Source of the DNA: Szabonella alba
Lineage (GTDB): Bacteria; Pseudomonadota; Alphaproteobacteria; Rhodobacterales; Rhodobacteraceae
Reading direction: 5' to 3'
DNA length: 64,000 nt
Assembly (NCBI RefSeq): GCF_016765775.1
Contig: NZ_JAESVN010000008.1
Span: forward strand, 1-64,000
Shown here: piece after piece, positions 516-6,316 of the stretch
Numbering within the stretch: position 1 is the stretch's first letter
Layout of the letters: each line of letters starts with the position of its first letter
The notes under the pieces: generated by a model
The model's database searches: none
Seen by the model: only the letters and a program-made list of their open reading frames with translations
Told to the model about the DNA's origin: nothing
Made by a program: the position numbers and the translations under genes

Positions 516-764
516 ATGATAATCGCGCCTGCATATCCCATCAGAAGCCTTCGGCAAGCCGGGTCCGTCCTGCGCGCCAGGCGTGCTTCGCGCAGGATCA
601 GCCAGAAGCAATTGGGGCAGATGACAGGAACGGCACAATCTACCATCTCGGACATCGAGAATGGCGTGGTGTCGGTCAGCCTCGATGTCTATCTGCGCCT
701 CCTGGAAGCTTTGGATGCAGAGCTGTCAGCGACCGATCGACTGGTCGACCGGGACATGACCTGA
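516..764 (+). CDS. hipB: HipB-like antitoxin, XRE-family DNA-binding protein
   Basis: This 82-residue protein is almost entirely one helix-turn-helix domain of the Xre/Cro type. Residues about 14-68 include SQKQLGQMTGTAQSTISDIENG, which places glutamine and serine contacts in the recognition helix. It lies one base upstream of a HipA kinase gene, the standard antitoxin-toxin arrangement. By family precedent it binds HipA and represses the operon through the palindrome at 455-471. No Shine-Dalgarno sequence precedes the ATG, which fits the leaderless transcript predicted from the promoter. Confidence 0.88.
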   Translation: MIIAPAYPIRSLRQAGSVLRARRASRRISQKQLGQMTGTAQSTISDIENGVVSVSLDVYLRLLEALDAELSATDRLVDRDMT

Positions 765-765
765 G

Positions 766-2091
766 ATGGCGCGTAGTGCCCGCGCTGCTCGCGGTACACG
801 CCAGAACAAGACCGCAGTCTGGTACGAGAGATCCAGAGTAGGCACGCTGGCGCGTGCGACCGATGGAGCGATCAGCTTCACCTATGATCCTGCATGGCTC
901 GTGTCCGAGACAGCCTTTCCTGTGGCCAGCGCCTTGCCGCTGTTGAAGGCCAGGTGGCAAGGCCATCCCGTGGTCGCGGCCTTCGACAACCTTCTGCCCG
1001 ACGCGGAGGGTGAACTGCGCGAAAAGATCGCCGCGCGCGTTGGTGCGCAGGGCAAGGATGTATTCTCGCTTCTGTCGGTGTTGGGGCGCGATTGCGTCGG
1101 TGCGCTTCAATTTCTGCCGATGGATGAAGCCCCTGCCGAGCAGGACATGCAGTATCGGATCATCTCGGAAGAAGAGATGGTCGCCGATCTAAAAAATCTC
1201 GCGGCTGCCCCCCTCGCACAAAGTGACGATGAGGATTTCAGGATTTCCATCGCAGGCGCGCAGGAAAAGACTGCCTATCTGCATGTGAATGGTCAGTGGG
1301 CAAAGCCGCGCGGCATCACGCCCACCAGCCATATCTTTAAGACACCCATGGGCATCCTGCCCGGCCCGGACCAGATCGACTTAAGCGACAGTGTCGAAAA
1401 CGAACTGTTCTGCATGACCCTTGCACGGGAAATCGGGTTGCCCGCCGCGCATGTCGAGAAGATCGTCCTTCCCGGGCAAGTAGTACTGTCAGTCGAACGG
1501 TTCGATCGGGTTTGGCAGGGTGAGACGCTAAAACGTTTGCCACAGGAGGATATTTGCCAGTCGTTGGGTTACCCCTCAGCTATGAAGTACCAAAAGGTGG
1601 GCGGCCCCGGCATCGCGCAGATCATGGAGCTTTTGCGGGAATCTGATACACCGATTGAGGATCGGGAGACCTTCTTCCAAGCGCAGATTTTCTACTTCCT
1701 GATCGGCGCGTCGGATGGCCACGCTAAGAATTTTAGTCTGCGTCTGGGACGGCAGGGCCGCTTCAGCCTGGCACCCCTGTATGACATCCTGAGCGTCGCT
1801 CCAGTCGTTCGCGCCGGGCGCTTGCAGCGCAAGCGTTACCGGCTCGCCATGTCGGTCGATGGCCATTACGGCGTCGACGAGATCGTGCCCCGTCACTTCG
1901 AGTCCGAAGGGCGCGCTGCAGGTCTTCCCAAAGGCCGCGCATTGGAGTTGCTGCAGGACATGACCGATCGGCTGGGTCCGGCGCTGGAGTGCGCGATGGT
2001 GGCAGTCGGCGCTCAGGTGCCCCAAAGCGTCAGTGACCCGATAGCAGATGACGCGATGCAGCGGGCGGCACAGGTCAAGGAACTGCTTTAG
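766..2091 (+). CDS. hipA: HipA-family serine/threonine kinase toxin
   Basis: The product (441 aa) has the HipA N-terminal subdomain (about 15-120) followed by the kinase core. Visible motifs are SIAGAQEK with the conserved loop serine at 161, the ATP-binding lysine in HIFKTP (K192), the catalytic SDGHAKNFS (D317, N322) and the metal-binding aspartate in LAPLYD (D340). In E. coli HipA the loop serine is autophosphorylated and the target is glutamyl-tRNA synthetase; the target here is unknown. All kinase residues are present, so the toxin looks intact. The start follows the hipB stop by one base and is presumably translationally coupled. The 3' end overlaps the convergent MobC-like gene by four bases. 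Confidence 0.92.
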   Translation: MARSARAARGTRQNKTAVWYERSRVGTLARATDGAISFTYDPAWLVSETAFPVASALPLLKARWQGHPVVAAFDNLLPDAEGELREKIAARVGAQGKDVFSLLSVLGRDCVGALQFLPMDEAPAEQDMQYRIISEEEMVADLKNLAAAPLAQSDDEDFRISIAGAQEKTAYLHVNGQWAKPRGITPTSHIFKTPMGILPGPDQIDLSDSVENELFCMTLAREIGLPAAHVEKIVLPGQVVLSVERFDRVWQGETLKRLPQEDICQSLGYPSAMKYQKVGGPGIAQIMELLRESDTPIEDRETFFQAQIFYFLIGASDGHAKNFSLRLGRQGRFSLAPLYDILSVAPVVRAGRLQRKRYRLAMSVDGHYGVDEIVPRHFESEGRAAGLPKGRALELLQDMTDRLGPALECAMVAVGAQVPQSVSDPIADDAMQRAAQVKELL

Positions 2092-2663
2092 GGATCCGGC
2101 CCCTTGGTTGCCAAACCTGCTAGCGCCTTGTCGACCTCTCGCGTCATCGCAGCTTGTTTTGCCTCCCAGAGGGTGCGGAAGTCTTCGACGAAATCGACAA
2201 AGAACCCCGCGAAGGTGCGGATAGTGGTCATGTCTTCGACGGTGAAAGGGATGGGGCGGCCGCGCAGCTTGGCCTCGTTCAGTTTGCGGGCCACTTGGTT
2301 GATTGCGGTGCCGTGTGTCTTAATCTCTGCGCCCCAGTCTTGAATCTGGTCGATCACGCTCTGATCGGCCGGACGCAGCAGGACATCCGCAGCACCCATC
2401 AGACTACGCAGCGCGGCTGGGTAGTCCGTGATGCCCCGCTTCACCATCCCGTCCTTGAAGCCCGCCAGTTCGCGTCTACTGACGCGTAGGCTGATCGTTC
2501 GGGTGAGCGCCGGGTGCGCGCCTTGGGCCTTGTTCAACGTGTTGTAGACCGTCCGGCGCGAGACCCCGAATTGGCGGGCAAGTGCCTTGACGGACGTGCC
2601 TTCGGCGCGGGCTTCGATGATCTGGCGGCGTTCGTCGATGGTCAGTTTGCGATGTTGGCGCAT
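2088..2663 (-). CDS. MobC-like plasmid mobilisation protein with an N-terminal HTH
   Basis: This 191-residue protein has two parts. Residues 1-50 form a resolvase-type helix-turn-helix (TIDERRQIIEARAEGTSVKA, then FGVSRRTVYNTL). Residues about 55-190 resemble MobC/relaxosome accessory proteins, with ISLRVSRRELAGFK and the helix GTAINQVARKLNEAK. MobC proteins bind oriT and help the relaxase nick DNA. No relaxase is visible in the window, so this may be an orphan of a mobilisable element or a regulator. No strong ribosome binding site precedes the ATG. The gene points toward hipA and ends inside its last codons. Confidence 0.7.
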   Translation of the reverse strand: MRQHRKLTIDERRQIIEARAEGTSVKALARQFGVSRRTVYNTLNKAQGAHPALTRTISLRVSRRELAGFKDGMVKRGITDYPAALRSLMGAADVLLRPADQSVIDQIQDWGAEIKTHGTAINQVARKLNEAKLRGRPIPFTVEDMTTIRTFAGFFVDFVEDFRTLWEAKQAAMTREVDKALAGLATKGPDP

Positions 2664-2770
2664 GTGAAGTTTACGTTCCTATTTCTTGCCAACTTCATCC
2701 AAGCCTCCCGCCTCCCAGCGTCAGCGGAGGCGGATCAGAGGCTTGGATTCAATTTCAGTGATTTTGCGAG

Positions 2771-2952
2771 GTGAGGCGGGATGCAGCGGGCACTGCGCGG
2801 AAGACGCGATGCGCCAAGCGAAAAGCACTGAACGCGGCGCAAAGGACGCAATGCGGTGGGCGCGGTGCAGAAGACACGGGGCGCGATGCACGGTCCAGAA
2901 AGCGCAATGCACAGGACGCGGTGCGCGATGCGCCCTGCAAAGAACGCGCCTC
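2771..2952. repeat. Array of 26 degenerate tandem heptanucleotides (consensus RNNNNRC)
   Basis: From 2771 the plus strand divides into 26 consecutive 7-mers (gtgaggc, gggatgc, agcgggc and so on, to gcgcctc). Every unit starts with a purine and ends with C, and 24 of 26 have a purine at position 6. GCGATGC occurs three times, and GCAATGC and GCGGTGC twice each. The array ends at 2952, directly against the stop codon (2953-2955) of the replication-initiator-like gene. The phase does not continue left of 2771. Seven is not a multiple of three, so the open frames across it are a by-product rather than a gene. Confidence 0.85.
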
Positions 2953-3816
2953 TCATGCCGCCAGCCCCGCCGCGCGCAGCTGGCCATCGGTCACCAACCC
3001 CGCCGTCACCAGCGCCGTTACCTGCGGGGCGGTGATGTGTTTGCACATCGGGCTGCGGTCGCGGACCCAAGCGGCCAGCCGGACGTGGTGGTCGGCTGTG
3101 AGGGCGGTCTGCGCCTGCCGTTTCTCGGCCAACGCATCGAGGAAGCGCTGCCACCGCCGGTCGGCAAACCAGTTATCCGCGAAACAGACCTTCGACCTCG
3201 TGAAACCCTCGCTCTCGGTCGCATAGGCCTGCACAGCGCGCAGCAGGTCGTCGGGATCAACGCCCTCCTTCACGGCCTCCTCGATCCGGACCAGACACGC
3301 CGCCTTGCCGCGCTGGCGGTCCTTCGGGTAGGCGCCCAAGATCTTCTCGAACCTTTCATCCTCCACCGCCGCCGCCTCCGCGCGCTTGCGCGTAGGTGGT
3401 TTATGGATGGTTTCAGGGTGGTTTGGGGTCCACCCTGGACCCCGTACGCCGTCCACGGTGGCCCCCGTACCGGGTTCAGTCTGGACGGGGTCCACTGTGG
3501 ACCCCGTCCCCTCATCGGGTTCGGTCATCGATTCCAGCGCCATCACGCGCGCCAGCACGATCCGGTAGATGACTGTGAAACCATTCTTGCAGGGGCGGCG
3601 CCCGGTCTCGATCAGGATACCCTCTTTCAGGAAATCGCTGATCGTCCGCTTGACTGTGCTTTCGCCCAGCTCGGTGTGGCGTTGGATCGTGCCCTTGGAG
3701 CACCAGATGCCCGAGCCGTCATCGCTCGCCTTGTCGGCGAGGAACATGATGATCTGTTTGCGCGCGGCACTGCCGAAGCGGCGTTCGGCGCATTCGTTCG
3801 CGACGCGCCAACTCAT
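2953..3816 (-). CDS. Phage/plasmid-type replication initiator-like protein (winged HTH)
   Basis: This 287-residue protein has an N-terminal winged helix-turn-helix (about 10-95; CSKGTIQRHTELGESTVKRT lies in the HTH). A proline- and glycine-rich linker (about 100-145) follows, then a C-terminal helical domain starting near FEKILGAYPKDRQRGKAA and ending with FADNWFADRRW. This order, with a YP..GKAA motif and a late W..RRW motif, is typical of phage O-like or plasmid replication initiators that load a helicase. The linker is encoded by palindromic 18-bp repeats (3428-3507). The start is the ATG at 3816, preceded by TTGTACAG direct repeats. Function is inferred from architecture; a plain HTH regulator is the alternative. 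Confidence 0.6.
   Translation of the reverse strand: MSWRVANECAERRFGSAARKQIIMFLADKASDDGSGIWCSKGTIQRHTELGESTVKRTISDFLKEGILIETGRRPCKNGFTVIYRIVLARVMALESMTEPDEGTGSTVDPVQTEPGTGATVDGVRGPGWTPNHPETIHKPPTRKRAEAAAVEDERFEKILGAYPKDRQRGKAACLVRIEEAVKEGVDPDDLLRAVQAYATESEGFTRSKVCFADNWFADRRWQRFLDALAEKRQAQTALTADHHVRLAAWVRDRSPMCKHITAPQVTALVTAGLVTDGQLRAAGLAA
3397..3424. repeat. Three TGGTTT motifs at exact 11-bp spacing
   Basis: TGGTTT occurs at 3397-3402, 3408-3413 and 3419-3424, one DNA helical turn apart and on the same face. The triplet lies inside the initiator-like gene, four bases from the first 18-bp iteron. It is a candidate protein-binding or unwinding element of an intragenic origin. Confidence 0.5.
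3428..3507. repeat. 18-bp palindromic-core iterons inside the initiator gene
   Basis: Three copies of GTCCAC-NN-TGG(A/C)CCCCGT lie at 3428-3445, 3451-3468 and 3490-3507. A weaker copy is at 3474-3491. Each has the dyad TCCA..TGGA or a close variant. They encode the linker of the initiator-like protein (TGSTVD, TGATVD, VRGPGWT). In phage lambda the origin iterons likewise lie inside the O gene. Confidence 0.65.
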
Positions 3817-3851
3817 TGACGGGCCCCGCGAGGGCCTAAACCGGCCTCAAC

Positions 3852-3870
3852 TTGTACAGGTTTTGTACAG
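3852..3870 (-). promoter_or_regulatory. Direct repeat TTGTACAG at 11-bp spacing upstream of the initiator gene
   Basis: TTGTACAG occurs at 3852-3859 and again at 3863-3870, one helical turn apart. Each copy contains the palindrome TGTACA. The pair sits about 40 bases upstream of the start codon at 3816 and is a candidate operator or binding site for the HTH protein. Confidence 0.45.
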
Positions 3871-3971: not shown

Positions 3972-4048
3972 TGGTGACCCCGGCAGGATTTGAACCTGCA
4001 ACCTGCCCCTTAGGAGGGGGCTGCTCTATCCAGTTGAGCCACGGGGCC
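3972..4048 (-). tRNA. tRNA-Arg (anticodon CCU)
   Basis: On the minus strand the sequence folds as a cloverleaf. The acceptor GGCCCCG (5' end at 4048) pairs with CGGGGTC, the D stem is GCTC/GAGC, and the anticodon stem GCCCC/GGGGC encloses loop CTCCTAA with anticodon CCT. The T arm is GCAGG-TTCAAAT-CCTGC. The discriminator is A, and CCA is encoded at 3972-3974. It reads the AGG arginine codon. Arg tRNA genes are common integration sites, and here the gene's 3' end faces the accessory region on the left. Confidence 0.96.
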
Positions 4049-4342: not shown

Positions 4343-5404
4343 GTGACCCGATCCCCTGATGCCCTGCGTGGTTCCGATCTGCGTCGTCCGCTGACGCTGC
4401 GCGATGTGTCCGAAGCATCAGGCGTCAGCGAAATGACGGTCAGCCGTGTGCTGCGCAACCGGGGCGATGTGTCCGAGGCGACGCGCGAAAAGGTGCTGAA
4501 TGCCGCGCGAAACCTGGGCTATGTGCCCAACAAGATCGCGGGTGCCCTGGCCAGCCAGCGGGTCAATCTGGTCGCGGTCATCATCCCCTCGCTGTCGAAC
4601 ATGGTCTATCCCGAGGTGATGACCGGCATTTCGGCGATGCTGGAAGATACCGGCCTGCAACCCGTTGTCGGCGTCACCCATTACCAGCCCGACCGCGAAG
4701 AGGCGGTGCTGTATGAAATGCTGTCCTGGCGGCCCTCGGGCGTGATCCTTGCCGGGCTGGAACACAGCGATGCCGCGCGGGCCATGTTGTCCAATGCCGG
4801 GATCCCGATTGTCGAAATCATGGATGTGGACGGCCAGCCCGTGGATTCGGTCGTGGGCATTTCGCATCGTCGCGCGGGTCTGAAAATGGCCGAGGCGATC
4901 CTTGCGGCGGGCTATCGGCGCATCGGGTTTCTGGGCACGATGATGCCCTATGACCACCGCGCCCGCAAACGGATGGAGGGGCTGCAAGAGGGCCTTGCCA
5001 GGGCCGGAATTGTGCTGGCCGATCAGGAATTCTATTCCGGCGGCTCGGCCCTGCTGAAAGGCCGCGAGATGACGGAAACCATTCTGGCGCGCTCACCTGA
5101 TCTGGATTTTCTGTATTATTCCAATGATATGATCGGGGCTGGCGGTCTGCTTTACTGTCTCGACAAGGGCATTGACGTGCCCGGGCAACTGGGGCTTGCC
5201 GGGTTCAACGGTGTGGAACTGCTGGACGGGCTGCCCCGGCAACTGGCAACCATGGATGCCTGCCGGGCCGAAATCGGTCGCATCGCGGCCGAGATCATTG
5301 CGGGCAAGCGTCCCGGAATGGCAGGGGGCCGCGTCATCGGGGGTGAACAGGTGGAACTGACGCCCAAGCTGCAGCCGGGCGATACAATCCGCCGGGCGGG
5401 CTGA
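4343..5404 (+). CDS. LacI-family transcriptional regulator, gluconate repressor (GntR) type
   Basis: The 353-residue protein has an N-terminal LacI helix-turn-helix (LTLRDVSEASGVSEMTVSRVL) and a hinge helix (NKIAGALASQR). A periplasmic-binding-protein-like sugar-sensing domain fills the rest. It resembles GntR/IdnR-type gluconate repressors. The GTG at 4343 is preferred because GAGG lies eight bases upstream; a TTG at 4295 is an in-frame alternative with no ribosome binding site. No gluconate gene is adjacent, so any targets other than itself are elsewhere. It converges with fabI. Confidence 0.85.
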   Translation: MTRSPDALRGSDLRRPLTLRDVSEASGVSEMTVSRVLRNRGDVSEATREKVLNAARNLGYVPNKIAGALASQRVNLVAVIIPSLSNMVYPEVMTGISAMLEDTGLQPVVGVTHYQPDREEAVLYEMLSWRPSGVILAGLEHSDAARAMLSNAGIPIVEIMDVDGQPVDSVVGISHRRAGLKMAEAILAAGYRRIGFLGTMMPYDHRARKRMEGLQEGLARAGIVLADQEFYSGGSALLKGREMTETILARSPDLDFLYYSNDMIGAGGLLYCLDKGIDVPGQLGLAGFNGVELLDGLPRQLATMDACRAEIGRIAAEIIAGKRPGMAGGRVIGGEQVELTPKLQPGDTIRRAG

Positions 5405-5446: not shown

Positions 5447-5497
5447 TCGATTTTCCGGCAAGATTGATTTTCCGGCAAGATTGATTTTCCGGCAAGA
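5447..5497. repeat. Three tandem copies of a 17-bp unit (TTGATTTTCCGGCAAGA)
   Basis: Units at 5447-5463, 5464-5480 and 5481-5497 are identical except for one base in the first. They lie in the gap between the convergent LacI-family gene and fabI. No hairpin is formed. Such repeats are prone to copy-number change. Confidence 0.9.
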
Positions 5498-5527: not shown

Positions 5528-6316
5528 TCAGATATTCTCGGCCTTCGGCATGCCCAGAACATGGAAACCGCCATCGACGCGAAGCACTTCGCCGGTCGTG
5601 TGCATCCCGTAATCGGAACACAGGAAAACCGCAGCCCCCCCCACCGATTCCAGCGTGGCATTGCTGCCAAGCGGCGCATTCGCCTCGGTATGGCGATAGG
5701 TCGCCCGCGCCCCCCCGATGGCAGCCCCCGCCAGCGTCTTCATCGGACCGGGCGAGATGGCGTTGACGCGGATCGCCTGCTGGCCCAGATCGGCGGCCAG
5801 ATAGCGCGTCGCACTTTCCAGCGCGGCCTTGGCCACCCCCATCACATTGTAATTCGGCGTCACGCGGTTCGACCCCTGAAAGGTCAGCGTCACAAGGCTG
5901 CCGCCTGCAGGCATCAGCTCTGACGCGCGGCGGCTGACATCAATGAAGGAAAAGCAGGAAATATCCAGCGAATTGGCGAAATTCCGGCGGCTCGTGTTGC
6001 TGAACCGCCCCGTGAGTTCGGCCTTGTCGGAAAAGGCGATGGCATGGATCAGAAAATCCATCCGGCCCCAGCGATCCTTCAGCGACGCGAAACAGGCATC
6101 AAGGCTGGCATCGTCCGACACGTCCACATCGACCAGAAAATCCGACCCGACCGAGGCCGCCAGCGGTTCCACCCGTTTGCCGAACGCCTCACCCTGATAG
6201 GAAAAGGCAAGCTCTGCCCCCTCCTGCGCCAGGGCCTTGGCAATGCCCCAGGCAATCGAGCGTTCATTCGCGACGCCCATGACAAGCCCGCGTTTGCCCT
6301 TCATCAGATCGGCCAT
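5528..6316 (-). CDS. fabI: Enoyl-[acyl-carrier-protein] reductase (NADH)
   Basis: FabI performs the last reduction of each fatty-acid elongation cycle. The 262-residue protein is a short-chain dehydrogenase with the FabI nucleotide motif GVANERSIAWGIA near the N-terminus. Catalytic Tyr156 and Lys163 are in PNYNVMGVAKAALE. Numbering matches E. coli FabI exactly, but the second active-site tyrosine (Tyr146) is phenylalanine here (TLTFQGSN). The gene starts four bases after fabB and has AAGGGG as ribosome binding site. The two genes form an operon. Confidence 0.95.
   Translation of the reverse strand: MADLMKGKRGLVMGVANERSIAWGIAKALAQEGAELAFSYQGEAFGKRVEPLAASVGSDFLVDVDVSDDASLDACFASLKDRWGRMDFLIHAIAFSDKAELTGRFSNTSRRNFANSLDISCFSFIDVSRRASELMPAGGSLVTLTFQGSNRVTPNYNVMGVAKAALESATRYLAADLGQQAIRVNAISPGPMKTLAGAAIGGARATYRHTEANAPLGSNATLESVGGAAVFLCSDYGMHTTGEVLRVDGGFHVLGMPKAENI

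Follow-up and report, generated by a model that had tools for sequence, protein, structure and literature searches.

VirC1 reportedly binds overdrive next to the T-DNA border, bringing the relaxase and the coupling protein together (PMC4949242). The ribbon-helix-helix (RHH) ParB of pSM19035 acts on 7–10 contiguous 7-bp repeats, and at least four of them in a row are needed to activate ParA (PMC9499535). In R388, 9-bp repeats near oriT are bound by StbA, which is accompanied by the ParA-like StbB (PMC3098194). A search of open-access papers on VirC1/VirC2, overdrive and integrative mobilizable elements of Rhodobacteraceae yielded only the overdrive, pSM19035, R388 and SGI1-type systems.

The analyzed DNA, further referred to as the window, was the whole stretch of 64,000 nucleotides from Szabonella alba (contig NZ_JAESVN010000008.1). 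A preliminary description of it had reported 26 contiguous phased heptamers, which proved to be exact to the base. When the plus strand was cut every seven bases from 2771, position 1 was G in 16 and A in 10 units, position 7 was C in 26 of 26, and position 6 was a purine in 24 of 26. The period-7 column information reached z = 19.3 over dinucleotide-preserving shuffles, and the maximum for unrelated periods was z = 2.2 (14 and 21 being multiples of 7). A shuffle check had been suggested as well, and in 2,000 dinucleotide shuffles the longest R-N5-C run comprised 7 units, versus the 26 observed. The array was the sole run of at least 8 perfect RNNNNRC units in its own 4.2 Mb genome, and the period-7 gain was 80 bits in the array versus at most ~35 bits elsewhere in the window. 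Among homologous loci, the units were degenerate yet constrained: their order was largely kept, whole units were gained or lost, and the middle bases varied while the phase stayed. The array is real, conserved and far above chance. Its end at 2952 adjoins the stop codon of a replication-initiation-like gene (rep); as rep lies on the minus strand, the array starts right after the stop on the coding strand.

Table 1. Coordinates of the heptamer array and of the features around it in the window.
Feature	Position	Strand	Evidence or remark
hipB-like antitoxin gene, island cargo	516..764	+	Pfam HTH_3; same place in relatives
hipA-like toxin gene, island cargo	766..2091	+	Pfam HipA_C, Couple_hipA
mobC, relaxosome accessory protein	2088..2663	-	best relatives carry the annotation mobC (MOBP/MPF_T plasmids); Pfam HTH
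T-DNA-border-like motif TTGGCAAGAAATAGGAACGT, presumed relaxase nick region	2673..2692	-	conservation in islands and class-1 plasmids
Inverted repeat of oriT, two stacked stems	2698..2747	-	compensatory changes; folds with z -6.5
Heptamer array, 26 degenerate units	2771..2952	+	RNNNNRC on the plus strand; GYNNNNY on the mobC/rep strand
Replication-initiation-like protein gene (rep), phage O-like family	2953..3816	-	PHROG replication initiation, E 7e-22
tRNA-Arg(CCT), attachment site, left island end	3972..4048	-	Rfam tRNA; 3' end directly repeated behind the integrase gene

The hairpin, the nick motif and mobC, which lie beside the array, had gone unmentioned in the preliminary description. 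The block of array, hairpin, nick motif and mobC was retained in all 22 related islands. When the hairpin was compared between islands and plasmids, 95.5% of cells were paired, versus 36–50% in slid controls, and six pairs were doubly changed. Every island and class-1 plasmid had the motif TTGGCAAGAAATAGGAACGT in exact or near-exact form, about 80–110 bp from the array in both groups. The motif was recorded in 27 of 395 family genomes, and a reversed control pattern in none. It resembles the T-DNA border consensus, and presumably marks the nick region. A structure model of MobC (pLDDT 85) displayed an N-terminal HTH, an RHH-like middle and long C-terminal helices. No match to MobC was found in phage records, and viral contigs held no confirmed MobC or VirC2-like relatives and no copy of the nick motif. 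Judged by sequence, the array belongs to the origin-of-transfer block beside it (hairpin, border-like motif, mobC) rather than to rep.

Conjugative plasmids of the MOBP/MPF_T type had the same arrays, of about 13–53 units, in their oriT, with virC1-virC2 on one side and mobC-virD2 on the other. The gene order of these plasmids was a divergent virC1-like gene, a spacer, mobC, and the genes of a VirD2-type relaxase and a coupling protein; the spacer held the heptamer array, then the inverted repeat and TTGGCAAGAAATAGGAACGT, and a Pfam VirC1 match was obtained in three plasmid examples. Among the loci with mobC and relaxase, the array was present in 18 of 18 with VirC1 nearby and in 0 of 8 without it. 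The nominal p of 6e-7 for this association overstates the evidence, as the loci are related and the counts non-independent, and it includes two borderline cases, namely an array near the threshold (L113, 56 bits) and a weak VirC1 match (L200, 38 bits). In a nick-motif survey of the 395 family genomes, which overlaps the mobC/relaxase survey in some of them, arrays were recorded at all 18 places with mobC, relaxase and VirC1 and in all seven islands, the window included. No array was detected in either of two mobC-only small plasmids, in any of three plasmids with the nick motif only, or at L209, L210 and L230 of the nick-motif survey. Four further places of this survey (L217, L229, L234 and L237) had an array of 51–68 bits, with neither VirC1 nor relaxase in the sequence read there, and represent remnants or truncated context. 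The relaxase-less plasmids L116, L117 and L118 carried the 20-bp nick motif but neither array nor mobC, and are likely minimal oriT mimics.

The gene after virC1 had about 140–260 codons. It matched Pfam VirC2 at L152 (65 bits) and L122 (37 bits), and an iterative profile seeded by these two gathered the other array-adjacent members, 24 proteins in all. It was by this profile, the first link of which was weak (E 0.0075) and the later scores high, that a VirC2-type gene was recognized next to virC1; the hhalign probability of the VirC2 link was 50% over 34 columns. The VirC2-like sequences contained two strand-helix-helix-like stretches (KIDIRVNA... and RTSLAV...), which would fit a single-chain RHH pair. 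Only chance-level matches were returned when PDB was searched by profile with the VirC2-like alignment.

Further, a VirC1-led survey was started from PF07015, and the Rhodobacteraceae loci of at least 70 bits that were long enough to score (n = 19) were evaluated. In all 19, the best period within ~510 bp upstream was 7, 8 or 9 (z 6.1–20.1). The unit cores differed by lineage and included GYNNNNY, ACANNNN, TCNNNNA, a GAT-rich 7-mer, the 9-mer GTCTCGANC and 8-mers, and outside Rhodobacteraceae an 11-mer (L155) and GTTGAYN (L164) were found; several of the odd periods each rest on one locus. Many class-level VirC1 loci, some with good VirC1 scores, showed no convincing array, and because of this the rule of an array upstream of VirC1 can be taken as firm for Rhodobacteraceae only. 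We give roughly even odds to a broader idea, in which alphaproteobacterial VirC1/VirC2 conjugation would generally have a "conjugation centromere", that is, a long, phase-strict and sequence-loose oriT array in which the VirC2-like protein dictates unit length (7, 8, 9 or 11 bp) and core, and islands without a relaxase would copy the array of the helper for docking at the mating apparatus. An 8-bp-period array (67 bits) was also observed at 7247 of L117, a 10-kb plasmid of Leisingera, beside a pair of genes for ParA and an RHH protein; it probably represents a common type Ib partition site and lends itself to comparison.

The window held the tRNA-proximal end of an island, cut by the contig start, and the tRNA was the sole convincing match of an Rfam search. 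In four relatives read end to end, the order was tRNA-Arg(CCT), rep, array, hairpin, nick motif, mobC, hip-type toxin-antitoxin, variable cargo and att repeat. This repeat of the tRNA 3' end was found 13.1–14.4 kb downstream, beside a tyrosine integrase; a direct repeat after the integrase gene was present in the four relatives and, in the genome of the window, on contig C48. The integrase on C48 was 96% identical and had attR directly behind it, and we infer that the halves in the window and on C48 form one island across contigs. No relaxase or VirC1 was detected by tblastn in the four end-to-end islands (13–14.4 kb), no partition gene was found in the integrated island, and the cargo at L185 comprised GHKL ATPases and an Eco57I-type methylase, with no transfer gene by Pfam. 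An integrase and att repeats in four relatives, together with an oriT and mobilization gene without a mating apparatus, are the features of an integrative mobilizable element, one end of which is, by these sequence features, carried by the window at tRNA-Arg(CCT). Behind attR on C48 (L192, after 14955), the sequence again resembled the left end of the island, which suggests a second-element remnant or tandem accretion. A perfect 17-bp tandem repeat of 2.9 copies, GATTTTCCGGCAAGATT, was noted at 5449-5497 of the window.

The genome of the window had one further relaxase, its VirC1-like ParA matches were all weak, and no class-1 helper was visible in it; in another genome (G002), an island and a class-1 plasmid contig were found together. 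The unit matrices of other islands correlated with that of the window at r 0.90–0.97 and those of class-1 plasmids at r 0.75–0.93, always on the opposite strand, versus 0.2–0.6 for other classes. The nick motif was likewise common to islands and class-1 plasmids. The match of island and plasmid units is predicted by hijacking of a class-1 helper, but would be equally expected if the oriT blocks derived from a common ancestor. The island probably copied the docking sequence needed for its transfer by VirC1/VirC2 plasmids. A small plasmid-like contig of the genome of the window (L211, contig C16, 9,073 bp) contained inverted one-mismatch copies of the nick motif (5054-5073 on the plus and 6177-6196 on the minus strand) and no heptamer array. 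It encoded a recombinase, a DNA methylase-type protein of 948 aa and a ParA, and an array of 8-bp period lay upstream of the ParA gene.

We proposed that the array is a centromere/overdrive-like docking array of oriT for the VirC1/VirC2 of a helper, and consider this explanation, in which the VirC2-like protein is the putative binder, to be likely. The VirC2-like RHH protein would bind each 7 bp to form a continuous lattice, the lattice would engage the ParA-type ATPase VirC1, and VirC1 would carry the relaxosome to the coupling protein and the secretion channel. The island, having no VirC1, VirC2, relaxase or type IV secretion system of its own, would be mobilized by a resident class-1 conjugative plasmid by means of the matching array, hairpin and nick motif. 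By analogy with overdrive, pSM19035 and R388, an array that is strict in phase and loose in sequence would be accounted for most simply by a continuous protein lattice that advances in 7-bp steps and is read by VirC1. Counting against the docking explanation are the weak first step of the VirC2 link, the relatedness of the loci, the lack of a visible class-1 helper in the genome of the window, the inversion of the island arrays relative to those of class-1 plasmids, and the occurrence of the nick motif without an array in some relaxase-less plasmids (L116–L118). The last of these suggests that the array stimulates transfer without being essential for it.

It was also considered that MobC, with its HTH and RHH-like region, may itself bind the array, which would then serve as an operator and as the place where the relaxosome assembles, with VirC1/VirC2 playing no part. 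MobC is the sole transfer protein encoded by the islands and accompanies the array in all of them whose sequence extends far enough; however, the eight array-less loci with relaxase and without VirC1 contain a mobC of the same family, as do the two mobC-only plasmids, and we regard binding by MobC alone as rather unlikely. A role as an operator that regulates the genes next to it (virC1-virC2 in plasmids, mobC or rep in islands), without direct involvement in transfer, would agree with the overlap of the plasmid array with the region upstream of virC1, and partition arrays often serve as promoter operators too, as in pSM19035 (PMC9499535). The array was nevertheless retained in islands without virC1 and virC2, which argues against an operator of these two genes alone, and its length, up to about 50 units, far exceeds that of usual operators. 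An operator function of this kind seems improbable.

The remaining explanations tie the array to rep, either as iterons for the adjacent initiator or as an RNA element at the 3' end of its transcript, the latter having been put forward in the preliminary description. In most islands the array does begin at the rep stop codon, but it is set apart from it in L020 and L033. Eighty loci encoding homologues of the initiator were compared, 22 with Rep of at least 80% identity and 58 with Rep of 65–73%. The search of relatives that had been recommended was borne out by the close set: phased arrays of about 20–27 units lay just 3' of rep in 22 of 22 loci, all from other Rhodobacterales. In contrast, none of the 58 more distant loci had an array by a period-7 scan of the whole locus, where the best period-7 gain was 52.7 bits at most and mostly near 35, against 63–79 bits in array loci. 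The gene directly after the array was common to the array loci and missing from the array-less ones. Since Rep homologues at 65–73% lack the array and plasmids with other neighbours have it, the link between array and rep is, on these comparisons, incidental; an iteron array would accompany its cognate Rep, whereas this one was lost in Rep relatives and occurs without this Rep. The RNA element is disfavoured further by the inverted placement of plasmid arrays between virC1 and mobC and by a fold no better than that of shuffles (DNA folding parameters). Both rep-based explanations were rejected as very improbable. The more general suggestion of a protein-binding array, for example for a replication or partition factor, is partly supported: its partition direction is favoured, given that the arrays track the ParA-family VirC1 and a presumed RHH partner, and its replication part is not.

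Two observations concern rep itself. The array-less rep family (L034–L091) is situated with varied toxin-antitoxin or mobilization genes, in some cases beside the same tRNA-Arg, which suggests a larger island family with interchangeable modules. Between tRNA-Arg and rep, the element CTGTACAAAACCTGTACAAG (3851-3870 of the window) is kept in the inspected islands and, with little change, in the array-less rep family, and is a candidate rep operator or iteron pair.

The array ties partition-style DNA arrays to conjugative transfer beyond Agrobacterium. The unit matching suggests a sequence-only predictor of which helper plasmid moves which island, and the clear phase, the clear partner genes and the natural unit-length variants make a tractable system for how VirC1 recruits the relaxosome. 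As related islands carry restriction-modification and other defence-like cargo, the array would help to decide its spread in Rhodobacterales.

Agrobacterium overdrive is likewise a cis element beside a VirD2-type border, served by the ParA-like VirC1 and the RHH protein VirC2 (PMC4949242). A VirD2-type border lies near the present array, the plasmid relaxase is VirD2-type, and VirC1 was in the same system in 18 of 18 plasmids; the islands have no VirC1 and would have to borrow it. Unlike overdrive, the array is long, strictly phased and degenerate (about 13–53 units) in a plasmid or island oriT beside mobC, and the two are likened by setting and partner genes. The parS of pSM19035 (type Ib, omega/ParB) shares gapless 7-bp repeats, an RHH protein and ParA, and works in either orientation (PMC9499535). 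The 26 contiguous repeats exceed the four needed there; however, the 7–10 units of pSM19035 are near-identical WATCACW serving partition, whereas here GYNNNNY (mobC strand) is repeated in 20–50 loose units at oriT, next to a relaxase gene or in an island. The stbDRs of R388 are also direct repeats beside oriT, with a repeat-binding protein and a ParA-like ATPase affecting conjugation (PMC3098194), but they comprise 9-bp repeats, five in each of two sets and separated by 2-bp spacers, TTGCATCAT, and involve a different DNA-binding protein, in contrast to the 7-bp units without spacer found here. The island resembles oriT-mimicking integrative mobilizable elements (SGI1 type and others), which are integrase-bounded, have no mating apparatus of their own and carry a helper-like oriT; unlike in these, mimicry here would add a matched ParA-docking array, there is no relaxase, and mobC and a replication initiator are present. 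The preliminary description knew of no element of such form. The open-access papers searched indeed contained nothing on heptameric repeats at oriT, but the array has kin in overdrive and partition sites. Although undescribed in these open-access papers, it belongs with the overdrive/partition-site kind and is not a new category.
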